A stretch of DNA of 51,036 nt from an uncultured Flavobacteriales bacterium. GTDB taxonomy: Bacteria > Bacteroidota > Bacteroidia > Flavobacteriales > BACL11. Below are positions 26,671 to 35,571 of this stretch, piece after piece. The stretch spans positions 1 to 51,036 of the forward strand of contig CAJWCP010000009.1 in assembly GCA_913031595.1 (NCBI GenBank), in the 5' to 3' direction. A program made the translations under genes and the position numbers. The first letter of the stretch is position 1. Each line of letters begins with the position of its first letter. Below the pieces are notes generated by a model, which had not been told where the DNA came from, did no database searches, and worked only from the letters and a program-made list of their open reading frames with translations.

Positions 26671-26678
26671 TAAATTTG
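26671..26678 (+). promoter_or_regulatory. -7 element TAAATTTG
   Basis: Perfect TAnnTTTG match 16 nt before the ATG at 26695; the only clear promoter in front of the five-gene MbnP-MqnE operon. Confidence 0.65.
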
Positions 26679-26694
26679 ACATCAAATAAAAAAA

Positions 26695-27456
26695 ATGAAA
26701 AGAAAATATCTAATCATATTACTTGTAATCATTCTTATATCATGTAAAAAAGAAAAAGGATGTACAGACCCTACCGCTATTAATTACAACTCTCAGGCAG
26801 AAGAAAATAATGGCTCATGTAAATATAACCTGGAAATAAATTTTACACATACAGTAAACAACTCTCCACTAGAGTTAAACCAAATGATATATACTAATGC
26901 AGCGGGAGAAGATTACAGTGTGCAAACATTAAAATATTTAATCTCAAACATAACCCTTAAAGGACCTAGCATTAATGATTCGATAATATACAATGTTCAT
27001 TTTGTGAATATAATAGATAGCTCAACCTTTATAATAAATATCCCTAACCTTCCTAATAAGACATATACTGGGATTTCTTTTACTATGGGATTAGATAGCT
27101 TAAATAATCAAACAGAATTATTTATAAATGAAAGTTTCTTTCCCTCATTTGCATGGCCTGACTTCTTAGGGGGAGGATATCATTACATGCAATTAGAAGG
27201 AGATTTTATTACTCCTTTCCAAGGTTATGCAACACATACTGGCCCAACAAATGGAAATAATTATTCTTTTTTAGTAGAGACTAATTTTGAAGAAAATATA
27301 TTAGAAAATAATAGAATTATTATAAATATGGAGATTAATAATTGGTACGCCCCTAACATAATTAACTTTACCATAAATGGTATTATGGATGATGAATTAA
27401 CTCAAAACCAATTAAGAAATAATGGTAATAATGTTTTCTCTATTTCTCTAGAATGA
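26695..27456 (+). CDS. MbnP-like copper-protein-family lipoprotein
   Basis: 253 residues. Lipoprotein signal with Cys17 (VIILISC), then one GCTDP...NGSC module at about 22-42, like the units of the giant protein at the window start, and an MbnP-type domain: YNLEINFTHTVNNSPLELNQ, YSVQTLKYLISNITL, and SFAWPDFLGGGYHYMQLEGDF with Trp154 in the region expected for the modified tryptophan. Known for the family: MbnP is a periplasmic copper-binding partner of the di-haem enzyme MbnH, which oxidises a tryptophan in it to kynurenine. The next gene encodes an MbnH-like enzyme, overlapping by 4 nt, which supports the call. No methanobactin biosynthesis gene is present. Confidence 0.85.
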   Translation: MKRKYLIILLVIILISCKKEKGCTDPTAINYNSQAEENNGSCKYNLEINFTHTVNNSPLELNQMIYTNAAGEDYSVQTLKYLISNITLKGPSINDSIIYNVHFVNIIDSSTFIINIPNLPNKTYTGISFTMGLDSLNNQTELFINESFFPSFAWPDFLGGGYHYMQLEGDFITPFQGYATHTGPTNGNNYSFLVETNFEENILENNRIIINMEINNWYAPNIINFTINGIMDDELTQNQLRNNGNNVFSISLE

Positions 27457-28487
27457 TAATGACCAAAAATACGTGTCTTCTATTAATTATGATTACTCTT
27501 TTCGGATGCAGAAAAGAAGATGATTATGAATGTAACCCAACTCCTTTTAACCCAACTCCTTATACAATAGCAACACCTCCTGGTTTTCCAGACATGATTA
27601 TACCAGAAGACAATCCTATGACTGTTGAAGGTATAATGTTAGGAGAAAAATTATTTAATGATAATATATTAAGTGGTGATGAAACGGTATCCTGCGCTTC
27701 ATGTCATATAAAAACAGCAGGATTCTCAGACACTAATCAATTTAGTATAGGAATCAATGGCTTAGCAGGAGATAGAAATGCCTCAACAATTATAAATGCT
27801 GGATGGAATAATCAGTTTAATTGGGATGGTAGCGCAAGAAATCTAGAAGAACAAGCATTTGAACCTATTAGAAATCCTATTGAAATGAATAACACATGGG
27901 AAAATGTAGAAATGAAATTAAATACCCATGCTGAATACCCTACTTTATTTAAAAATGCTTTTAATATTGATTATATTGATTCAATACATATAGTGAAAGC
28001 AATTGCTCAATTTGAAAGAACATTAATATCTGTCAATAGTAGATATGACCAATATCTTAGAGGAGAAATTCAGCTCACCCCCTCTGAATTAAATGGATTT
28101 GCAATATTTAATTCAGAAAAAGGCGACTGTTTTCACTGTCATGGAACTCAAATGTTTACAGATAATCTTTTTCATAATAATGGGCTTGACACAGAACCTT
28201 TTAATGATTGGGGATTAGGAAATATAACCAACAACCCTTTAGATAATGCTAAATTTAAATCGCCTACTTTACGTAATATTGAATTTTCAAAACCATATAT
28301 GCATGATGGAAGATTTAATTCTCTAGAAGAAGTTGTAGAGCATTACAACTCAGGAGGAAATTTCTCTTCAACAGTTGACCCTTTAATGAAAAAATTAGGT
28401 GTAGGATTACAACTAACAAATGAAGAAAAACAAGATCTAATTGCATTCCTCAAAACATTATCTGATCCTGATTTTTTAGACAAATGA
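27453..28487 (+). CDS. MbnH/MauG-type di-haem cytochrome c peroxidase lipoprotein
   Basis: 344 residues. Lipoprotein-type start (LLLIMITLFGCRKED), then two c-type haem sites: CASCH (about residue 79) and CFHCH (about 225). Also GEKLFNDNILSGDETVSCASCH, WDGSARNLEEQAFEPIRNPIEM, FERTLIS and PTLRNIEFSKPYMHDGRFNSLEEVVEHYN, as in bacterial cytochrome c peroxidase and MauG proteins. Next to an MbnP-like gene the likely job is oxidation of the MbnP tryptophan rather than peroxide detoxification; that is inference from known MbnP/MbnH pairs. It starts within the mbnP-like stop (ATGA), and its own stop overlaps the first protease start in the same way. Confidence 0.9.
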   Translation: MIMTKNTCLLLIMITLFGCRKEDDYECNPTPFNPTPYTIATPPGFPDMIIPEDNPMTVEGIMLGEKLFNDNILSGDETVSCASCHIKTAGFSDTNQFSIGINGLAGDRNASTIINAGWNNQFNWDGSARNLEEQAFEPIRNPIEMNNTWENVEMKLNTHAEYPTLFKNAFNIDYIDSIHIVKAIAQFERTLISVNSRYDQYLRGEIQLTPSELNGFAIFNSEKGDCFHCHGTQMFTDNLFHNNGLDTEPFNDWGLGNITNNPLDNAKFKSPTLRNIEFSKPYMHDGRFNSLEEVVEHYNSGGNFSSTVDPLMKKLGVGLQLTNEEKQDLIAFLKTLSDPDFLDK

Positions 28488-30352
28488 TATATTCTTCTAC
28501 AAGAATATCTTTTATTATGAGATTATTAATTGCCTTATTAATATTTACTAAATGTAATCTCTGTGCACAAGAATATAATTGTGGGAGTCAAGAACGGTTA
28601 AACTATTATCTAGAATCAAACACAAAAAAGAAAATAGAACGAAAAGAAATTGAAGAAAGAATTAGAAAAAACATAAAAGAACATAACACAAATACTATTA
28701 TCCCTGTTATATTTCATATTGTTTATAAAAATCCATACGAAAACATATCAGACAATCAAATATATGAACAACTTGATGTTTTAAATAAAGATTTTACCAG
28801 AACAAATACTGATGCTTCAAATACACCAACTGATTTTATTCCCATTGCAGCAAACATGGAAATAAATTTCTGTTTAGCTCAACAAACTCCTAATGGCCTA
28901 CCAACTAATGGAATAATCAGAAAACAAACAAACAATAACTTTTTCCCTCTATACGGAGATGCTATATTCTATGATTCACTAGGGGGAAGCTCTGCATGGG
29001 ACACAAAAAAATATTTAAATATATGGGTCTGTGATATTGAAGATGGAATACTAGGGTGGGCACAATTTCCTTCAGGAGGAGATGTAAACACAGATGGAGT
29101 TGTAATAAACTTTGAACACTTTGGAAAGACAGGAACAGCTATATATCCTTATAATCTAGGACGTACTACAACACATGAAGTAGGACATTGGTTAAACTTA
29201 TATCATATATGGGGAGACACTAATTGTGGAGATGACTGGGTAAATGATACTCCTGAACAAGAACAAGCAAACTTTGGATGTAAAATTCACCCTCATCAAA
29301 GTTGTAATAATAATGGAGATATGTTCATGAACTATATGGACTATACAAATGATGCTTGCATGAATTCTTTCACTCTAGGACAAAAGAATAGAGTCTGGAC
29401 AGGAATATACAACTATAGGATAGATCTCTTATCATCAAATGGATGTAATCCTATAACAATTCCTAATAGTGATGCCGGTATTAGTAAAATTATAGAGCCA
29501 GATTTTTCAGACTGTGCTAATCCTATATACCCAAAAGTTGTACTTAAAAACTATGGTGGCAATATATTAAATTCTGTATCTATTGAATACTCAGTTAATG
29601 GAAGTAATATTTACACCAATAGTTGGAATGGAAACTTATCTCCTCTAGAAACAGATACAATAATTCTTTCAGGCATAATGAGTTCAGGAACAACTCAATT
29701 ATTAATTGCTAATACCATTTTACCAAATGGTAGTGCAGATATTAATCCAAGTAATGATCAACAACAATTAATTTTCTCCTCAATTAATGGAGAACTAATA
29801 AATATAAACATAATGACTGATAATTATGGTAATGAAAATTCTTGGAAATTATTAAATGAAGATAATATAGTCATAGACAGTAATGACAGTTTACTCAACA
29901 ATACATTATATGAACTTTCTTATTGTTTAGAATATAGCTGTTATAAATTTATAATTAATGATAGTTATGGAGATGGTTTTTGCTGTAATTTTGGAAATGG
30001 TTATTATGAATTATACGAGCATACATCTACAACACCTATTACTTTCGTACAGAATTTTTCTTTTACCGATACTACATATTTTTGTCTAGGTGCAAACTCA
30101 GTAAATGAAGAAGGAAAAAATTTAGAAATATATCCAAACCCAACAGATGGAAAACTTTACATAAATAATAATCTTGAATCAAAGAATCCGCTTATATTCG
30201 CAAGAATATTTAACATGCTTGGTCAAGAAGTCTTACATACCGAAATTAAAGATGAAGAAATTAACCTAAACATACTAAAAGAAGGTTTATATCAACTTAT
30301 AATTTATAATAAAGAAAAGCACTATCACCATAAAATAATACTAAAAAAATGA
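28484..30352 (+). CDS. secreted M43-type zinc metalloprotease with T9SS tail (1)
   Basis: 622 residues. Signal peptide in the first about 30 residues (ATG at 28484 in an ATGA overlap; an in-frame ATG at 28517 is an alternative). The catalytic zinc motif HEVGHWLNLYH is at residues 231-241 and the Met-turn region (MFMNYMDYT) follows at about 283. The upstream IIPVIFHIVYKN and DxVVINFEHFG parts match pappalysin-like M43 proteases. Residues about 440-540 are a module with SWKLLNEDN, CYKFIIND and DSYGDGFCC, the same type as the three N-terminal modules of the giant repeat protein. The end (LEIYPNPTDGKLYI... GLYQLIIYNKEKHYHHKIILKK) is a type A T9SS sorting domain. Expected secreted or surface-bound. 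Confidence 0.93.
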   Translation: MIYSSTRISFIMRLLIALLIFTKCNLCAQEYNCGSQERLNYYLESNTKKKIERKEIEERIRKNIKEHNTNTIIPVIFHIVYKNPYENISDNQIYEQLDVLNKDFTRTNTDASNTPTDFIPIAANMEINFCLAQQTPNGLPTNGIIRKQTNNNFFPLYGDAIFYDSLGGSSAWDTKKYLNIWVCDIEDGILGWAQFPSGGDVNTDGVVINFEHFGKTGTAIYPYNLGRTTTHEVGHWLNLYHIWGDTNCGDDWVNDTPEQEQANFGCKIHPHQSCNNNGDMFMNYMDYTNDACMNSFTLGQKNRVWTGIYNYRIDLLSSNGCNPITIPNSDAGISKIIEPDFSDCANPIYPKVVLKNYGGNILNSVSIEYSVNGSNIYTNSWNGNLSPLETDTIILSGIMSSGTTQLLIANTILPNGSADINPSNDQQQLIFSSINGELININIMTDNYGNENSWKLLNEDNIVIDSNDSLLNNTLYELSYCLEYSCYKFIINDSYGDGFCCNFGNGYYELYEHTSTTPITFVQNFSFTDTTYFCLGANSVNEEGKNLEIYPNPTDGKLYINNNLESKNPLIFARIFNMLGQEVLHTEIKDEEINLNILKEGLYQLIIYNKEKHYHHKIILKK

Positions 30353-31674
30353 GAAAAATACTACTTCTATTATTATTCTACAATATTAACATTATGAATG
30401 CGCAAGAAAATAGATTTTGGTGTAATACAACAAACATCATGAATAAAGCACTAGAGGAAAATATTACATATAAGGAAAATAGAAAAAAAATACAAGAGAA
30501 TAATAAACATTGGATTGATCAAAAGAATCAAAAAACAATAATCACAATACCTATAGTCGTACATGTTATACACAGAAATACACATGTTAATATAGGATCT
30601 GGCACAAATATATCAGATGATCAAATTGAAGACGCTATACGAATACTAAATGAAGATTATAGTAAATCAAATTCAGAATTTCCTAATCCTCCAAGAACAA
30701 CTTTTCTAAATCAGGCAAGTAATCCTGAATTGGAATTCTGCTTAGCTAGTGTTGATCCTGATGGAAATCCAACAAATGGTATCACAAGAACTTCATCTTC
30801 AAAAAACAACTTCGATCCTGATACAGAAGCTGATGATATGAAAAAAAATAATACAGGAGGAAGAGATGGATGGGATCCATCAAAATATCTAAATATATGG
30901 GTATGTGATTTAGCCACAACTTCCGGAGGAGGAATGGTTTTAGGTTATGCCTACTTGCCAGGATTACCATGGTGGTGGGAATGGAGAGATGGCCTAGTTG
31001 TAGACTTCCAATGGTTTGGAAGCATAGGAGCTGCTCAAGCCAGCGATGGTAGAACTGCAACTCATGAAATTGGCCACTATCTTGGTTTAGAACATACATT
31101 TTGTGAATCACAAAGCGGAGGCTGCTGTGATCAAGACAATGGAAATGTAAATGACACACCTCCTACAGATGGAGTATATTGGTATGGTGTTAATAATAGT
31201 ACGCCATCTCCTACTTCTTCCTCATATAATTCATGTAATGATATGAACTATGGTTTTAACTCTGATTCGCCTGACATGCATGAGAACTATATGTCATATG
31301 CATCTGATACATGGATGTTCACAAATAGTCAAGCTAATGTAATGCAAGCTACACTGAATGGATATAGATTAAGCTTAAAAAACTCTATAAGCTCAGGAAC
31401 AAATGTAAATTGTGGTGATATTACCATGAATAATTATATCTCATTAAATACAATCGATATACACCCTAATCCTAATAATGGAATAATATTAATTAATAGC
31501 TTAGAAAACATAGAATCTATATCAGTATCTACAGTAGCAGGCAGTCAGGTATTGCTAAAGAATCAAATAAAAAACAACCAAATTGATCTAGGTCACTTAA
31601 ACAATGGTGTATATGTTATTACTATCAATACAAATAATCAAACGTATACTAAAAAAATCATTCTGAAAAAATAA
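30349..31674 (+). CDS. secreted M43-type zinc metalloprotease with T9SS tail (2)
   Basis: 441 residues. Signal peptide (MRKILLLLLFYNINIMNAQ), propeptide-like N-terminal part, catalytic motif HEIGHYLGLEH at 239-249 and Met-turn MHENYMSYASD. Loops carry cysteines (CESQSGGCCDQDNGNVND) typical of M43 proteases. The last about 75 residues (IDIHPNPNNGIILIN... LNNGVYVITINTNNQTYTKKIILKK) form a type A T9SS sorting domain. It overlaps the first protease gene by 4 nt (ATGA). It lacks the DSYGDG module of its neighbour, so the two are not simple copies. Confidence 0.93.
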   Translation: MRKILLLLLFYNINIMNAQENRFWCNTTNIMNKALEENITYKENRKKIQENNKHWIDQKNQKTIITIPIVVHVIHRNTHVNIGSGTNISDDQIEDAIRILNEDYSKSNSEFPNPPRTTFLNQASNPELEFCLASVDPDGNPTNGITRTSSSKNNFDPDTEADDMKKNNTGGRDGWDPSKYLNIWVCDLATTSGGGMVLGYAYLPGLPWWWEWRDGLVVDFQWFGSIGAAQASDGRTATHEIGHYLGLEHTFCESQSGGCCDQDNGNVNDTPPTDGVYWYGVNNSTPSPTSSSYNSCNDMNYGFNSDSPDMHENYMSYASDTWMFTNSQANVMQATLNGYRLSLKNSISSGTNVNCGDITMNNYISLNTIDIHPNPNNGIILINSLENIESISVSTVAGSQVLLKNQIKNNQIDLGHLNNGVYVITINTNNQTYTKKIILKK

Positions 31675-32780
31675 TGTTATCTACTGAACATATAAATAAA
31701 GATTTAAAACCGATTGTAAAGAAGGTTTCTCAGCAGAAAAGAATATCAGAAAAAGAAGGCTTGCTATTATATACAAAAGCACCTCTCGCATTATTAGGAT
31801 CCCTTGCCAATTCTATTCGAGAAAGAACAAATGGAGAAAAAGTGTTTTTTAATAGAAATATACATATTGAACCTACAAATATTTGTGTATTTGATTGTAA
31901 ATTCTGTGCATACTCAAAATTACTTCGAAATAAAGATGAAGGATGGGAGTATACAATTAATGAAATGTGTGAAAAGATTACAAAATATAAAGAAGGAGAA
32001 ATCACAGAAGTGCATATAGTAGGAGGAGTACATCCTAAAATGGGATTAAAATACTTCATAGACTTAATAAAAGAAATTAAAAAAATTAGGCCAAAACTAC
32101 ATATAAAGGCATTTACCGCTGTGGAACTAGAATATATGTGTCGTAAAGCAAAGGTCAGCTATAAAGAAGGTTTAGAAATGTTGAAGAATGCAGGACAAGG
32201 CTCTTTACCTGGAGGAGGCGCAGAAATATTTCACAATGATATTCGATCAGAAATTTGTAAAGATAAATGTACTACAGAACAATGGCTAGAAATACATGAA
32301 GAAGCTCATAAATTATCTATGCCTTCTAATGCAACTATGTTATACGGACACATCGAAGATCCTATTCATATTATTGACCACATGAGCAAATTAAGATCTT
32401 TACAAGATAAGACAGGGGGATTTAACACCTTTATTCCACTTAAATATCGTAATGGAAACAATCAAATGTCACATATTGAAGAAGTAAGTTTAATTGAAGA
32501 TATACGCTTATATTCGTTTTCTAGGATTTTTATGGATAATTTCAAACATTTAAAAGCATATTGGCCAATGATAGGCAAAAAAACCACTCAGTCTTTATTA
32601 TCTTTTGGAGTAAATGATATTGATGGTACTATTGACGACACTACTAAAATTTATTCAATGGCTGGAGCTGAAGATCAAAATCCAGTTATGAGTACAGAGG
32701 AAATTGTTAAGCTAATAAAAGATGCAGGAAAGACTCCTGTAGAAAGAGATACACTATATAATACTATTAAAGAATATTAA
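31674..32780 (+). CDS. mqnE: aminofutalosine synthase
   Basis: 368 residues, a radical SAM enzyme. It joins 3-[(1-carboxyvinyl)oxy]benzoate to SAM to give aminofutalosine in the futalosine route to menaquinone. Features: cluster motif CVFDCKFCAYS (CxxxCxxC, about 72-79), IVGGVHPKMG, HIKAFTAVEL, SLPGGGAEIFHNDIR and SNATMLYGHIEDP. The last two, with the length, favour MqnE over MqnC. The ATG overlaps the protease stop (TAATG), so a quinone-synthesis gene rides at the end of an export operon; functional linkage is doubtful. Its stop overlaps the convergent RluD-type stop by 4 nt. Confidence 0.92.
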   Translation: MLSTEHINKDLKPIVKKVSQQKRISEKEGLLLYTKAPLALLGSLANSIRERTNGEKVFFNRNIHIEPTNICVFDCKFCAYSKLLRNKDEGWEYTINEMCEKITKYKEGEITEVHIVGGVHPKMGLKYFIDLIKEIKKIRPKLHIKAFTAVELEYMCRKAKVSYKEGLEMLKNAGQGSLPGGGAEIFHNDIRSEICKDKCTTEQWLEIHEEAHKLSMPSNATMLYGHIEDPIHIIDHMSKLRSLQDKTGGFNTFIPLKYRNGNNQMSHIEEVSLIEDIRLYSFSRIFMDNFKHLKAYWPMIGKKTTQSLLSFGVNDIDGTIDDTTKIYSMAGAEDQNPVMSTEEIVKLIKDAGKTPVERDTLYNTIKEY

Positions 32781-33784
32781 TACTTCTGATTAGAAGAATA
32801 TTTTCTCCATTTATCAATTAAAAAAGACATATCTTTAGGTAATTCAGAATCAAATAATAAGTTCTTAGAAGTTATTGGATGATTAAATTCTAATGATTTG
32901 GCATGTAGAGCGTGACGATCGCAAATCTTAAAGCAATTTTGTACAAATTGTTTATACTTAGAGAATACCGTTCCTTTAAGTATTAAATTTCCTCCATAAT
33001 CTGAGTCATTAAATAAAGGATGACCTAGATATTTAAAATGAGCACGGATCTGGTGTGTTCTTCCAGTTTCTAATGTACACTCAACTAATGTGGTATATCT
33101 AAATCGTTCTTTAACTTTATAATGAGAAACAGCATGCTTTCCATACTCTCCATTTGGAAAAACATCCATTATCTTTCGATTCTTTAAACTTCTTCCAATA
33201 TTACCAGTAATCGTACCTTCTTCTTCTTCTAAATTCCCCCATACTAATGCAATATATTTTCTATTAAGATCTCTTTTTTCAAATTTCTTTGATAAAGAAA
33301 TCATACTCTTCTCTGTTTTAGCAATAACTAATAATCCAGATGTATTCTTATCTATTCTATGTACTAATCCAGGACGATTATAACCTTGATAACTTGGTAA
33401 GTTATTAAAATGAAATACTAATGCATTTACTAACGTGCCTTCATAATTACCAAAACCAGGATGAACTACCATGCCAGCTTCCTTATTAACAATTAAAAGA
33501 TAATCATCTTCATAAGTAATATCTAAGGCTATATTTTGGGGTATTAATTCATGTTTTTCATTAGGAAAATCATAAACAACGGTAACAATATCTTCTGCCT
33601 TAACTTTATAATTTGACTTTACTATCTTAGCATTTACCTTAACATTTCCATCTTTAATAGCTTGTTGAATTTTATTTCTACTAGCAAACTCAATAAAGTT
33701 TAATAAAAACTTATCAATCCGTAAAGGCCTCTGTCCTTTATCTGCAATAAATTTATAATGTTCAAACTCGTGATACTCCTCCAT
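32777..33784 (-). CDS. rluD: RluD-type 23S rRNA pseudouridine synthase
   Basis: 335 residues. N-terminal S4 RNA-binding domain (LRIDKFLLNFIEFASRNKIQQAIKDGNVKVN, about 20-50), then the RluA-family catalytic core with HRIDKNTSGLLVIAKT (Asp about residue 142) and ETGRTHQIRAHFKYLGHPLFND. In other bacteria RluD modifies U1911, U1915 and U1917 of 23S rRNA; I infer the same. It is third in an operon after a PASTA gene and a T9SS gene, the start overlapping the previous stop by one base. PASTA / exported protein / RluD / ddl is a familiar Bacteroidota neighbourhood. Confidence 0.9.
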   Translation of the reverse strand: MEEYHEFEHYKFIADKGQRPLRIDKFLLNFIEFASRNKIQQAIKDGNVKVNAKIVKSNYKVKAEDIVTVVYDFPNEKHELIPQNIALDITYEDDYLLIVNKEAGMVVHPGFGNYEGTLVNALVFHFNNLPSYQGYNRPGLVHRIDKNTSGLLVIAKTEKSMISLSKKFEKRDLNRKYIALVWGNLEEEEGTITGNIGRSLKNRKIMDVFPNGEYGKHAVSHYKVKERFRYTTLVECTLETGRTHQIRAHFKYLGHPLFNDSDYGGNLILKGTVFSKYKQFVQNCFKICDRHALHAKSLEFNHPITSKNLLFDSELPKDMSFLIDKWRKYSSNQKY

Positions 33785-35571
33785 TAATAAACAAGTAATT
33801 TTTCATACTTCTTACTGACGTTATTTTCCAACTCAACTATATATAATGCCGCAGGAAGATCAGAAATAGAGATATTATTCACATTATCCCTTATATAAAC
33901 TTGCTTTACAAGTACACCTTGTAAAGTATAAAAAGAAACTCTATTATTATTACAATTAGTATTAATAAAGATATTAGAATTAGTTGGATTTGGATATAAA
34001 GTAAAATTATGATTACTCTCTGAAGTAACTAAAGGTAATGGTTTTTGACTAACAATAGGGCGAATCATCCAAGCACCTGGAAACTGAGAATTCATCCACC
34101 CAGAACCTACATTATAATGCATATATTGATTAGCATGTAAATTCTTGTCTAAACCTATATTTAATAAATCATCTGTAGTTTGCTCCCAGCCTACATAAAA
34201 AGTACCAACTAATTGAAAAAGAGAATCTAATCTATAAGTATGAAACTCACCATAATCAGTATGAAAAGGATAAACCTCTTGCTGATAAATTACAGATTCA
34301 CTCGCAAAAATATCACTCCAAATTGTTAATTTAAAAGGGATTTGATTAACAGAATCTAACATTTGCGGGAAATACATCTGAATAGCTCTTAATGTATCTG
34401 GCCTATTTAATTTAAATTGATAAGCTATCTTTGCACCATCTACATTAATACCATACGCAGACTCAGCAATACCATCATCATAAGAAAAATGAGAGAAAAA
34501 ATTCTGAGTTCTTATTATAGTATCATTCTTCTTATAGTCATTAATACCCGTGCCTATAATATGTTCAATATTAAATGAAACACTATCTAACATAATCGAG
34601 GAAAATGTATTACTAGCAACAGAAATAGGTGGAGAAAAAGAAAAATTACCAATGGAATCATAATTAAGAATCGTTACATTACGACTAACACCTATAGTTG
34701 GATAATGTGCTACCAAACTAACATCATCATACACATTATATTGATATTCAATATTAATACTACTATTATTATTTCTAATTAGAATATCAAGCGTATCTTT
34801 AATTTCTAAAGCTTCATTATTTAAGAAGTGTGACCAAGGCATCTCATTATATCTAGACAAAAACGATGGACTACTATATACAAAAGATACATCCTCTAAA
34901 CTCGTTGTGTCTGAAGGATTAATATATTCATCTAACTTAATGTAATCTATATGCCAATGATCAAAATTACCTGAAAGTGTAGCTTTATTTCTAAATCTAA
35001 ATTGAAAATCTTCAATAAGATAATCTGAAGTATTAATTAAAACAACATGTTTCTTAAACTCATAACTATAATCACCTTCTTTTTTCCATTGCACATTCCA
35101 ATCACCATTAACATCTTTAAATTCTAAAATTAATGAATCTTGTATTTCTGGATTGTCTCCTATACCCTGAGGTTGATAATAAAAAAAGAAGAAGGCCGTA
35201 CTTATATTTGACAAATCAATTTCTTGTGACATCAAAGTATCCGCGTATCCTTCAGGTATTGACATATCAATTGCATAAGCCAACCCATTAGCATTTAGGC
35301 CATCAAAAGTAGCAACACCTATAGTAGGGGGATTAATAGGATAAGTAGAATTTAAAAAAACATTACCTGAATACCATAAATTAGTATCTAAACCGGAAGA
35401 AAAGGACGAGAAATCATCAATAAAAGGCAAAGATATTCCATTCTTAATTTTAGATTTAGCAACAATATCTTTAGAAGGAGGGCCAAATAATAAATGACTA
35501 ATTACCTCCTGTGAAGAAAGAGTAAAACTAATAGTAATAAATACAAAAAGAAATAAATATCTATTCATCAT
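33784..35571 (-). CDS. T9SS-sorted exported protein, function unknown
   Basis: 595 residues. Signal peptide (MMNRYLFLFVFITISFTLSSQ), an FIDDFSSFSSGLDTNLW segment at about 50-66 and a jelly-roll-like beta region up to about 215, a long beta-rich body without recognisable enzyme motifs, then the type A sorting domain (FTLYPNPTNSNIFINTN, then LPAALYIVELENNVSKKYEKLLVY). The start overlaps the PASTA gene stop by 4 nt (ATGA). The same type of gene lies between PASTA and RluD genes in related genomes, so it may have a conserved envelope role, but no function is known to me. Confidence 0.8.
   Translation of the reverse strand: MMNRYLFLFVFITISFTLSSQEVISHLLFGPPSKDIVAKSKIKNGISLPFIDDFSSFSSGLDTNLWYSGNVFLNSTYPINPPTIGVATFDGLNANGLAYAIDMSIPEGYADTLMSQEIDLSNISTAFFFFYYQPQGIGDNPEIQDSLILEFKDVNGDWNVQWKKEGDYSYEFKKHVVLINTSDYLIEDFQFRFRNKATLSGNFDHWHIDYIKLDEYINPSDTTSLEDVSFVYSSPSFLSRYNEMPWSHFLNNEALEIKDTLDILIRNNNSSINIEYQYNVYDDVSLVAHYPTIGVSRNVTILNYDSIGNFSFSPPISVASNTFSSIMLDSVSFNIEHIIGTGINDYKKNDTIIRTQNFFSHFSYDDGIAESAYGINVDGAKIAYQFKLNRPDTLRAIQMYFPQMLDSVNQIPFKLTIWSDIFASESVIYQQEVYPFHTDYGEFHTYRLDSLFQLVGTFYVGWEQTTDDLLNIGLDKNLHANQYMHYNVGSGWMNSQFPGAWMIRPIVSQKPLPLVTSESNHNFTLYPNPTNSNIFINTNCNNNRVSFYTLQGVLVKQVYIRDNVNNISISDLPAALYIVELENNVSKKYEKLLVY

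Follow-up and report, generated by a model that had tools for sequence, protein, structure and literature searches.

Five genes lie head to tail on the forward strand at 26695-32780 of the window, the whole 51,036-nucleotide stretch analysed here, which comes from contig CAJWCP010000009.1 of an uncultured Flavobacteriales bacterium (source assembly 1.32 Mb, 77% complete). Open reading frames and family matches confirmed the gene content given by the first-pass annotation, namely an MbnP-type lipoprotein (P), an MbnH-type di-haem enzyme (H), two T9SS-sorted M43 metalloproteases (M43a and M43b) and mqnE. Its gene overlaps were exact, with ATGA junctions at 27453 (mbnP/mbnH, a 4-base overlap), 28484 and 30349 and a TAATG junction at 31674 before mqnE, the last of which is retained in nearly all relatives having mqnE. 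In the source genome, MbnP and MbnH-like genes occur once each, and M43 gives six matches. The features of the row are as follows.

26671..26678, + strand: TAAATTTG, Bacteroidota-type -7 promoter element (TAnnTTTG motif), 24 nt 5' of the mbnP start
26695..27456, + strand: mbnP, type II MbnP lipoprotein, 253 aa (PF20243, fold match 7l6g, lipobox)
27154..27156, + strand: Trp154 codon, predicted kynurenine precursor (Trp in 104/105 homologues)
27181..27183, + strand: His163 codon, extra His of the type II clade (51/105 homologues)
27235..27237, + strand: His181 codon, candidate copper ligand (103/105 homologues)
27385..27387, + strand: Met231 codon, candidate copper ligand (Met 63/105, His 38/105)
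27453..28487, + strand: mbnH-type di-haem enzyme, 344 aa (CCP_MauG 198 bits, TIGR04039 274 bits)
28344..28346, + strand: Tyr298 codon, predicted MauG-type axial haem ligand (97/99 homologues; aligns with the 1iqc Met)
28484..30352, + strand: M43a, T9SS-sorted metalloprotease, 622 aa (PF05572, PF18962; clade of operon copies)
29174-29206, + strand: M43a zinc motif, HExxHxxxxxH
30349..31674, + strand: M43b, T9SS-sorted metalloprotease, 441 aa (PF05572, PF18962; single family-specific clade)
31063-31095, + strand: M43b zinc motif, HExxHxxxxxH
31674..32780, + strand: mqnE, aminofutalosine synthase, start of the conserved backbone (TIGR03700 440 bits, above cut-off)

Both M43 proteins combine a PF05572 domain with a PF18962 T9SS tail and possess the HExxHxxxxxH zinc motif, which is invariant among M43b relatives. 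No copper transport gene adjoins the mbnP/mbnH pair, whose neighbours are the M43 proteases and mqnE. A 595-residue T9SS protein, with its sorting tail as the sole Pfam domain, is encoded at 33784-35571 of the window and, in several families, keeps its place with rluD on one side and a PASTA protein on the other.

The window MbnP passed the PF20243 profile (86 bits, E 4e-24, curated cut-off 27), with a score far under those of WxW-type members (up to 205 bits). When an AlphaFold2 model of the protein (pLDDT 93) was compared with the PDB using Foldseek, E values below 0.001 were obtained only for six chains of 7l6g, with TM scores of 0.59-0.61. Searching the PDB by sequence, whether from the window MbnP, from a Bacteroidota MbnP or from two profiles, matched no MbnP structure; the link to 7l6g was made via the fold search and afterwards via a Methylocystis MbnP, which is closely homologous to 7l6g (537 bits) and about 17% identical to the window protein. 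In the alignment with this homologue, W154 corresponds to the first Trp of WNW, M231 to the Met of GCM and H181 to a His, while Phe152 occupies the slot of the Met preceding the Trp. A 2021 study of MbnP reportedly described a copper site made up of His, Met, solvent and a kynurenine formed with the assistance of MbnH from the first Trp of WxW, and is said to be the source of the criterion of a complete WxW motif. That motif is incomplete in the window protein, where it reads WPD (the second Trp occurs in 46/105 homologues), and membership of the MbnP family is for this reason based on profile and fold. The first-pass annotation had picked out Trp154, which is indeed the invariant Trp (104 of 105 homologues); His181 is kept by 103 of them, and residue 231 is Met in 63 and His in 38. 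None of the likely copper-site residues whose loss had been envisaged is missing, W154, H181 and M231 all being kept at positions conserved in 96-99% of homologues. H181 and M231, perhaps with H163, are predicted copper ligands, and, as judged from sequence and model, the MbnP of this species looks functional.

All 51 homologues with His163 have Met231 and none has Trp156; His163 and His231 occur together in no sequence of the 105. This type II MbnP group (51 sequences) has a WP[DEN]-like motif in place of WxW, plus a YHYM strand (window 27154-27189, residues 154-165), and the His163 sequences sit in one clade of the P tree (support 99). Their confinement to a single clade indicates that the His163/Met231 pattern probably reflects one evolutionary change rather than repeated covariation. 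An H gene lies near 50 of the 51 type II P genes. Across the family of the source genome (f1), P and H begin with lipoprotein signals, after which come residues rich in Lys, Asp and Glu (in the window MbnP, a lipobox with charged residues after the Cys), which would be compatible with surface export. MbnP was found in 66/100 relatives and in 110/149 genomes sampled of class Bacteroidia. At one locus (L041:8842-9630) an in-frame stop lies inside MbnP, with MbnH and both proteases open, possibly as an assembly error. At some type I loci in Bacteroidia, MbnP is preceded by a CHGKCQL-type protein of ~120-130 residues (L083:9715-10098 and similar) and MbnH is followed by a CxxCGC protein; around type II MbnP, genes of both kinds hardly occur.

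The partner enzyme matched CCP_MauG (198 bits, E 1e-58). TIGR04039 (MbnH) was its best model at 274 bits, below the curated cut-off of 363, as were eight Bacteroidota relatives scanned (235-286 bits). Its CxxCH motifs, C81-H85 and C226-H230, are invariant in 99/99 homologues, and Tyr298, present in 97/99, falls in the alignment on the position of the Met ligand in the Nitrosomonas peroxidase 1iqc; Tyr298 is a candidate haem ligand as in Tyr-His enzymes of the MauG/BthA type. The closest solved relative is 6e1c. Spacing to mbnP is near zero, H overlapping or abutting P in nearly all relatives. An MbnH-type gene stands divergently beside mqnE in families f14 and f15, where both P and M43 are missing from the locus (L232:6403-7470, L233:568-1626, L236:6161-7234, L237:5414-6475); two sister genomes (G065, G076) have no such H at the mqnE locus and no MbnP at all.

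The pair resembles MbnP/MbnH of Methylosinus trichosporium OB3b (7l6g) in its adjacency, in the predicted fold of MbnP (TM about 0.60), in keeping the first Trp, His181 and Met231 positions, and in having an MbnH-family di-haem partner. Unlike the OB3b protein, the window MbnP is a lipoprotein; it has neither the second Trp of WxW nor the Met ahead of Trp154, and it carries His163 in addition. No methanobactin genes lie near the window pair. With its predicted copper site, the pair also resembles the methanotroph systems MopE/SACCP and CorA/CorB, in which a surface protein with a kynurenine copper site is accompanied by a di-haem peroxidase-like partner (PMC3912023, PMC3621798); MopE and CorA gave no sequence match to the window MbnP, and neither was among the 50 fold matches listed. 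MauG and BthA are di-haem CxxCH enzymes with Tyr-His ligation (PMC6405878), and Tyr298 of the window MbnH stands at the matching position by alignment. However, MauG modifies methylamine dehydrogenase and BthA has a phosphatase-like neighbour (PMC6405878), whereas the neighbour of the window enzyme is MbnP. MbnPH pairs outside methanobactin clusters are found beside copper genes (PMC9426467), and on a Deinococcus radiodurans plasmid MbnP, cytochrome c peroxidase, CopC and CopD stand in a row. Unlike such copper operons, the window pair has M43 and mqnE neighbours.

Gene order was assessed from 60 mapped neighbourhoods, with counts in f1 taken over the 37 loci in which the H of the pair was present and the downstream sequence was readable. 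The next co-directional gene after H was an M43 gene in 35 of these 37 loci, a recurrence that places the P-H-M43 order far beyond chance; both exceptions belong to genus g10. Conservation of the order, on which the first-pass annotation had staked its proposal, held, with an M43 gene after the pair in 13/14 resolved f1 genera and in family f9. Tandem M43 genes were seen in 15 f1 loci (a 16th ends at a contig edge), the others having M43b alone. In f9, the order P-H-M43a-trypsin-like T9SS protease-mqnE was found, tightly spaced, in 5/5 such loci seen. In most f1 loci, however, 25-130 bp separate the first M43 gene from the gene before it, frequently accompanied by a separate -7 element, and the tight fusion is thus peculiar to this species and a small number of others. 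Elsewhere, P-H is followed by an unrelated gene in f7, where a T9SS subtilase is transcribed away from P; in several loci of f8, f3 and f6 the gene after P-H encodes a CxxCGC protein some 310 residues long. The other orders of the class contributed 40 P loci; a co-directional neighbouring M43 gene was seen at none of them, and one had an M43 gene about 2 kb away on the opposite strand. These comparisons draw on metagenome assemblies that are incomplete, on quick trees whose only support values are SH-aLRT, and on promoters called from motifs. The apparent absence of P from 14 f1 genomes was dropped as evidence, since the orthologous mqnE is also missing in nine and the region was probably unassembled. 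At the f1 loci L043, L055, L047, L051, L038, L048 and L053, mqnE is stop-broken, truncated or missing; this decay in several f1 lineages may correspond to loss of the futalosine menaquinone route there.

The -7 element consensus of Bacteroidota is TAnnTTTG. It occurred within 80 nt of 41/44 P genes, 2/43 H genes and 0/39 mqnE genes, against a background of 5.4% of random 80-nt stretches. At the source row, the one visible promoter described previously was recovered as the element before mbnP, and none was seen at the inner junctions. Among relatives, the first protease gene had its own TAnnTTTG 14-45 nt upstream in 18/19 f1 loci with M43b alone, 7/16 f1 loci with M43a and 4/4 loci of genus g10. 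The element before M43 is missing, and the spacing tight, in the source species and a few other genera; in the f9 row the sole promoter-like element stands before P. On the strength of these M43-side motifs, two transcription units appear to be the commoner state in f1 and the fused row the less common one.

Comparison across lineages also separated the parts of the row. The protease copies of the locus group by themselves: M43b forms one clade of 40 rows, M43a of f1 forms a clade whose sister is that of f9 (SH-aLRT 87), and non-operon M43 genes fall outside. In genus g10, M43a-M43b-mqnE-rluD is intact and P-H is on another contig; one g10 genome has an H gene between M43a and M43b. Loss of P-H was considered for the g10 genomes G020 and G028 and rejected, H having been found at contig starts. 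Two further lineages of Bacteroidota (L165, L193) carry M43-mqnE followed by rluD, with P-H absent there. Among the best 80 M43b relatives from about 85,000 genomes, P was in the flanks of eight loci, all of them in f1; outside f1, none of these 80 had P in its flanks, and mqnE was present in four such loci. Relatives with the same M43b are, where named, uncultured Flavobacteriales metagenome assemblies. Five f1 loci (L038, L047, L048, L051, L053) have M43b adjoining P-H without mqnE. P-H, M43 and mqnE thus behave as three separable parts set around a conserved backbone of mqnE, rluD, T9SS protein, PASTA and ddl, and this chromosomal neighbourhood of mqnE is old. The MbnP of f9 stands apart from that of f1 in the tree (AU p 1.6e-5), and MbnH of the two families possibly forms one clade; in one family a resident H may have had its P exchanged, or P-H may have entered the locus on two occasions, and either history would fit these data. 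Repeated joining, if true, would favour some link. Separate origins of the mqnE-linked MbnH genes (f1, f9, f14, f15) were also considered, and a single clade was unrejected (p 0.42), so no repeated recruitment is claimed.

Taken together, these data support the idea, to which we give a probability of roughly 0.7, that the locus consists of two neighbouring modules, mbnP-mbnH and M43-(M43)-mqnE, fused in this species. MbnH, as a MauG-type di-haem enzyme, would probably oxidise Trp154 of MbnP to kynurenine, which with His181 and Met231, and perhaps His163, would form a Cu(I) site serving copper handling at the presumed cell-surface location of MbnP. The M43 T9SS metalloproteases would probably carry out general extracellular protein degradation, with mqnE downstream of them as a gene of the menaquinone pathway. 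Because the genes overlap and no promoter element stands between the modules, both are probably co-transcribed in this species, which would need no shared biochemical step. The two-module reading is favoured by the element of its own that the first M43 gene has in many relatives, and H and mqnE almost never have, by g10, in which the M43 genes stay with mqnE and P-H lies elsewhere, by L165 and L193, which have M43-mqnE and no P-H there, by the lack of P beside the best 80 M43b relatives outside f1, and by the 40 other-order P loci. It is weakened by the persistence of the P-H-M43 order through 13 genera, by the tight f9 copy without an inner element and by the five mqnE-less loci in which M43b stays with P-H.

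The main alternative is that the pair and the M43 proteases form one system, in which the proteases release anchored MbnP, mature it, or free copper for capture by MbnP. The conserved f1 order and the tightly spaced f9 row are consistent with this, as is the recurrence of a secreted protease as neighbour, with the f9 trypsin-like enzyme in the place of M43b and a subtilase in f7; a precedent exists in MopE, whose C-terminal part is released as MopE* in Methylococcus (PMC3621798). By contrast, many relatives have a promoter element before M43 itself, the modules lie apart in g10, M43-mqnE occurs without P-H elsewhere, none of the 40 P loci of other orders has a co-directional M43 neighbour, and T9SS proteases are common (1-8 M43 per f1 genome with a match), so that we regard a single system as rather unlikely. 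Neither the description of the pair as locked to the proteases nor the placing of the proteases in the same system as the pair is supported by the promoter elements, the g10 arrangement, L165 and L193, or the 40 other-order loci. An MbnP/MbnH-plus-M43 unit that is always linked or co-controlled was not recovered, given the M43-side elements, the unlinked g10 modules and M43-mqnE standing alone elsewhere, and an undescribed joint copper-protease system is possible but unlikely. A more specific version, in which the pair and proteases of f1 and f9 would constitute one surface metal-acquisition unit, with proteases of exchangeable family (M43, trypsin-like) freeing protein copper or releasing copper-loaded MbnP and with a type II site modified by the added His, we consider improbable.

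Two further alternatives concern the pair itself. Type II MbnP may no longer make a kynurenine copper site, with WPD, His163 and Phe152 serving another metal or another modification by MbnH. The missing second Trp of WxW and Met before Trp154 point in this direction, as do the PF20243 score (86 bits, compared with up to 205 for the WxW type) and the TIGR04039 score below cut-off; however, all Bacteroidota members scanned score under that cut-off, Trp154, His181 and Met231 are kept in a fold that matches 7l6g, and the MbnH partner retains its haem motifs and Tyr298, which together leave a changed site with a small probability. It would be more surprising still if the tie of MbnH were to mqnE or to the locus and not to MbnP, with the enzyme acting, for instance, as a peroxidase of the periplasm or the surface. 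The divergent MbnH-type genes beside mqnE in f14 and f15 and the g10 genome with H between the two proteases are consistent with such a tie, but H overlaps or abuts P in the source and nearly all relatives, 50/51 type II P genes have H nearby, and mqnE encodes a cytosolic radical SAM enzyme, and we accordingly find this highly improbable.

The pair itself is a known one; its neighbourhood here is unusual, and its MbnP site is a variant. To our knowledge, all functional data on MbnP come from proteobacteria, and the type II clade with its changed motif offers a clean test of which residues a kynurenine copper site needs. The neighbourhood analysis illustrates how what looks like an operon may consist of two older units that fused in a single lineage, and guards against reading too much into gene order.
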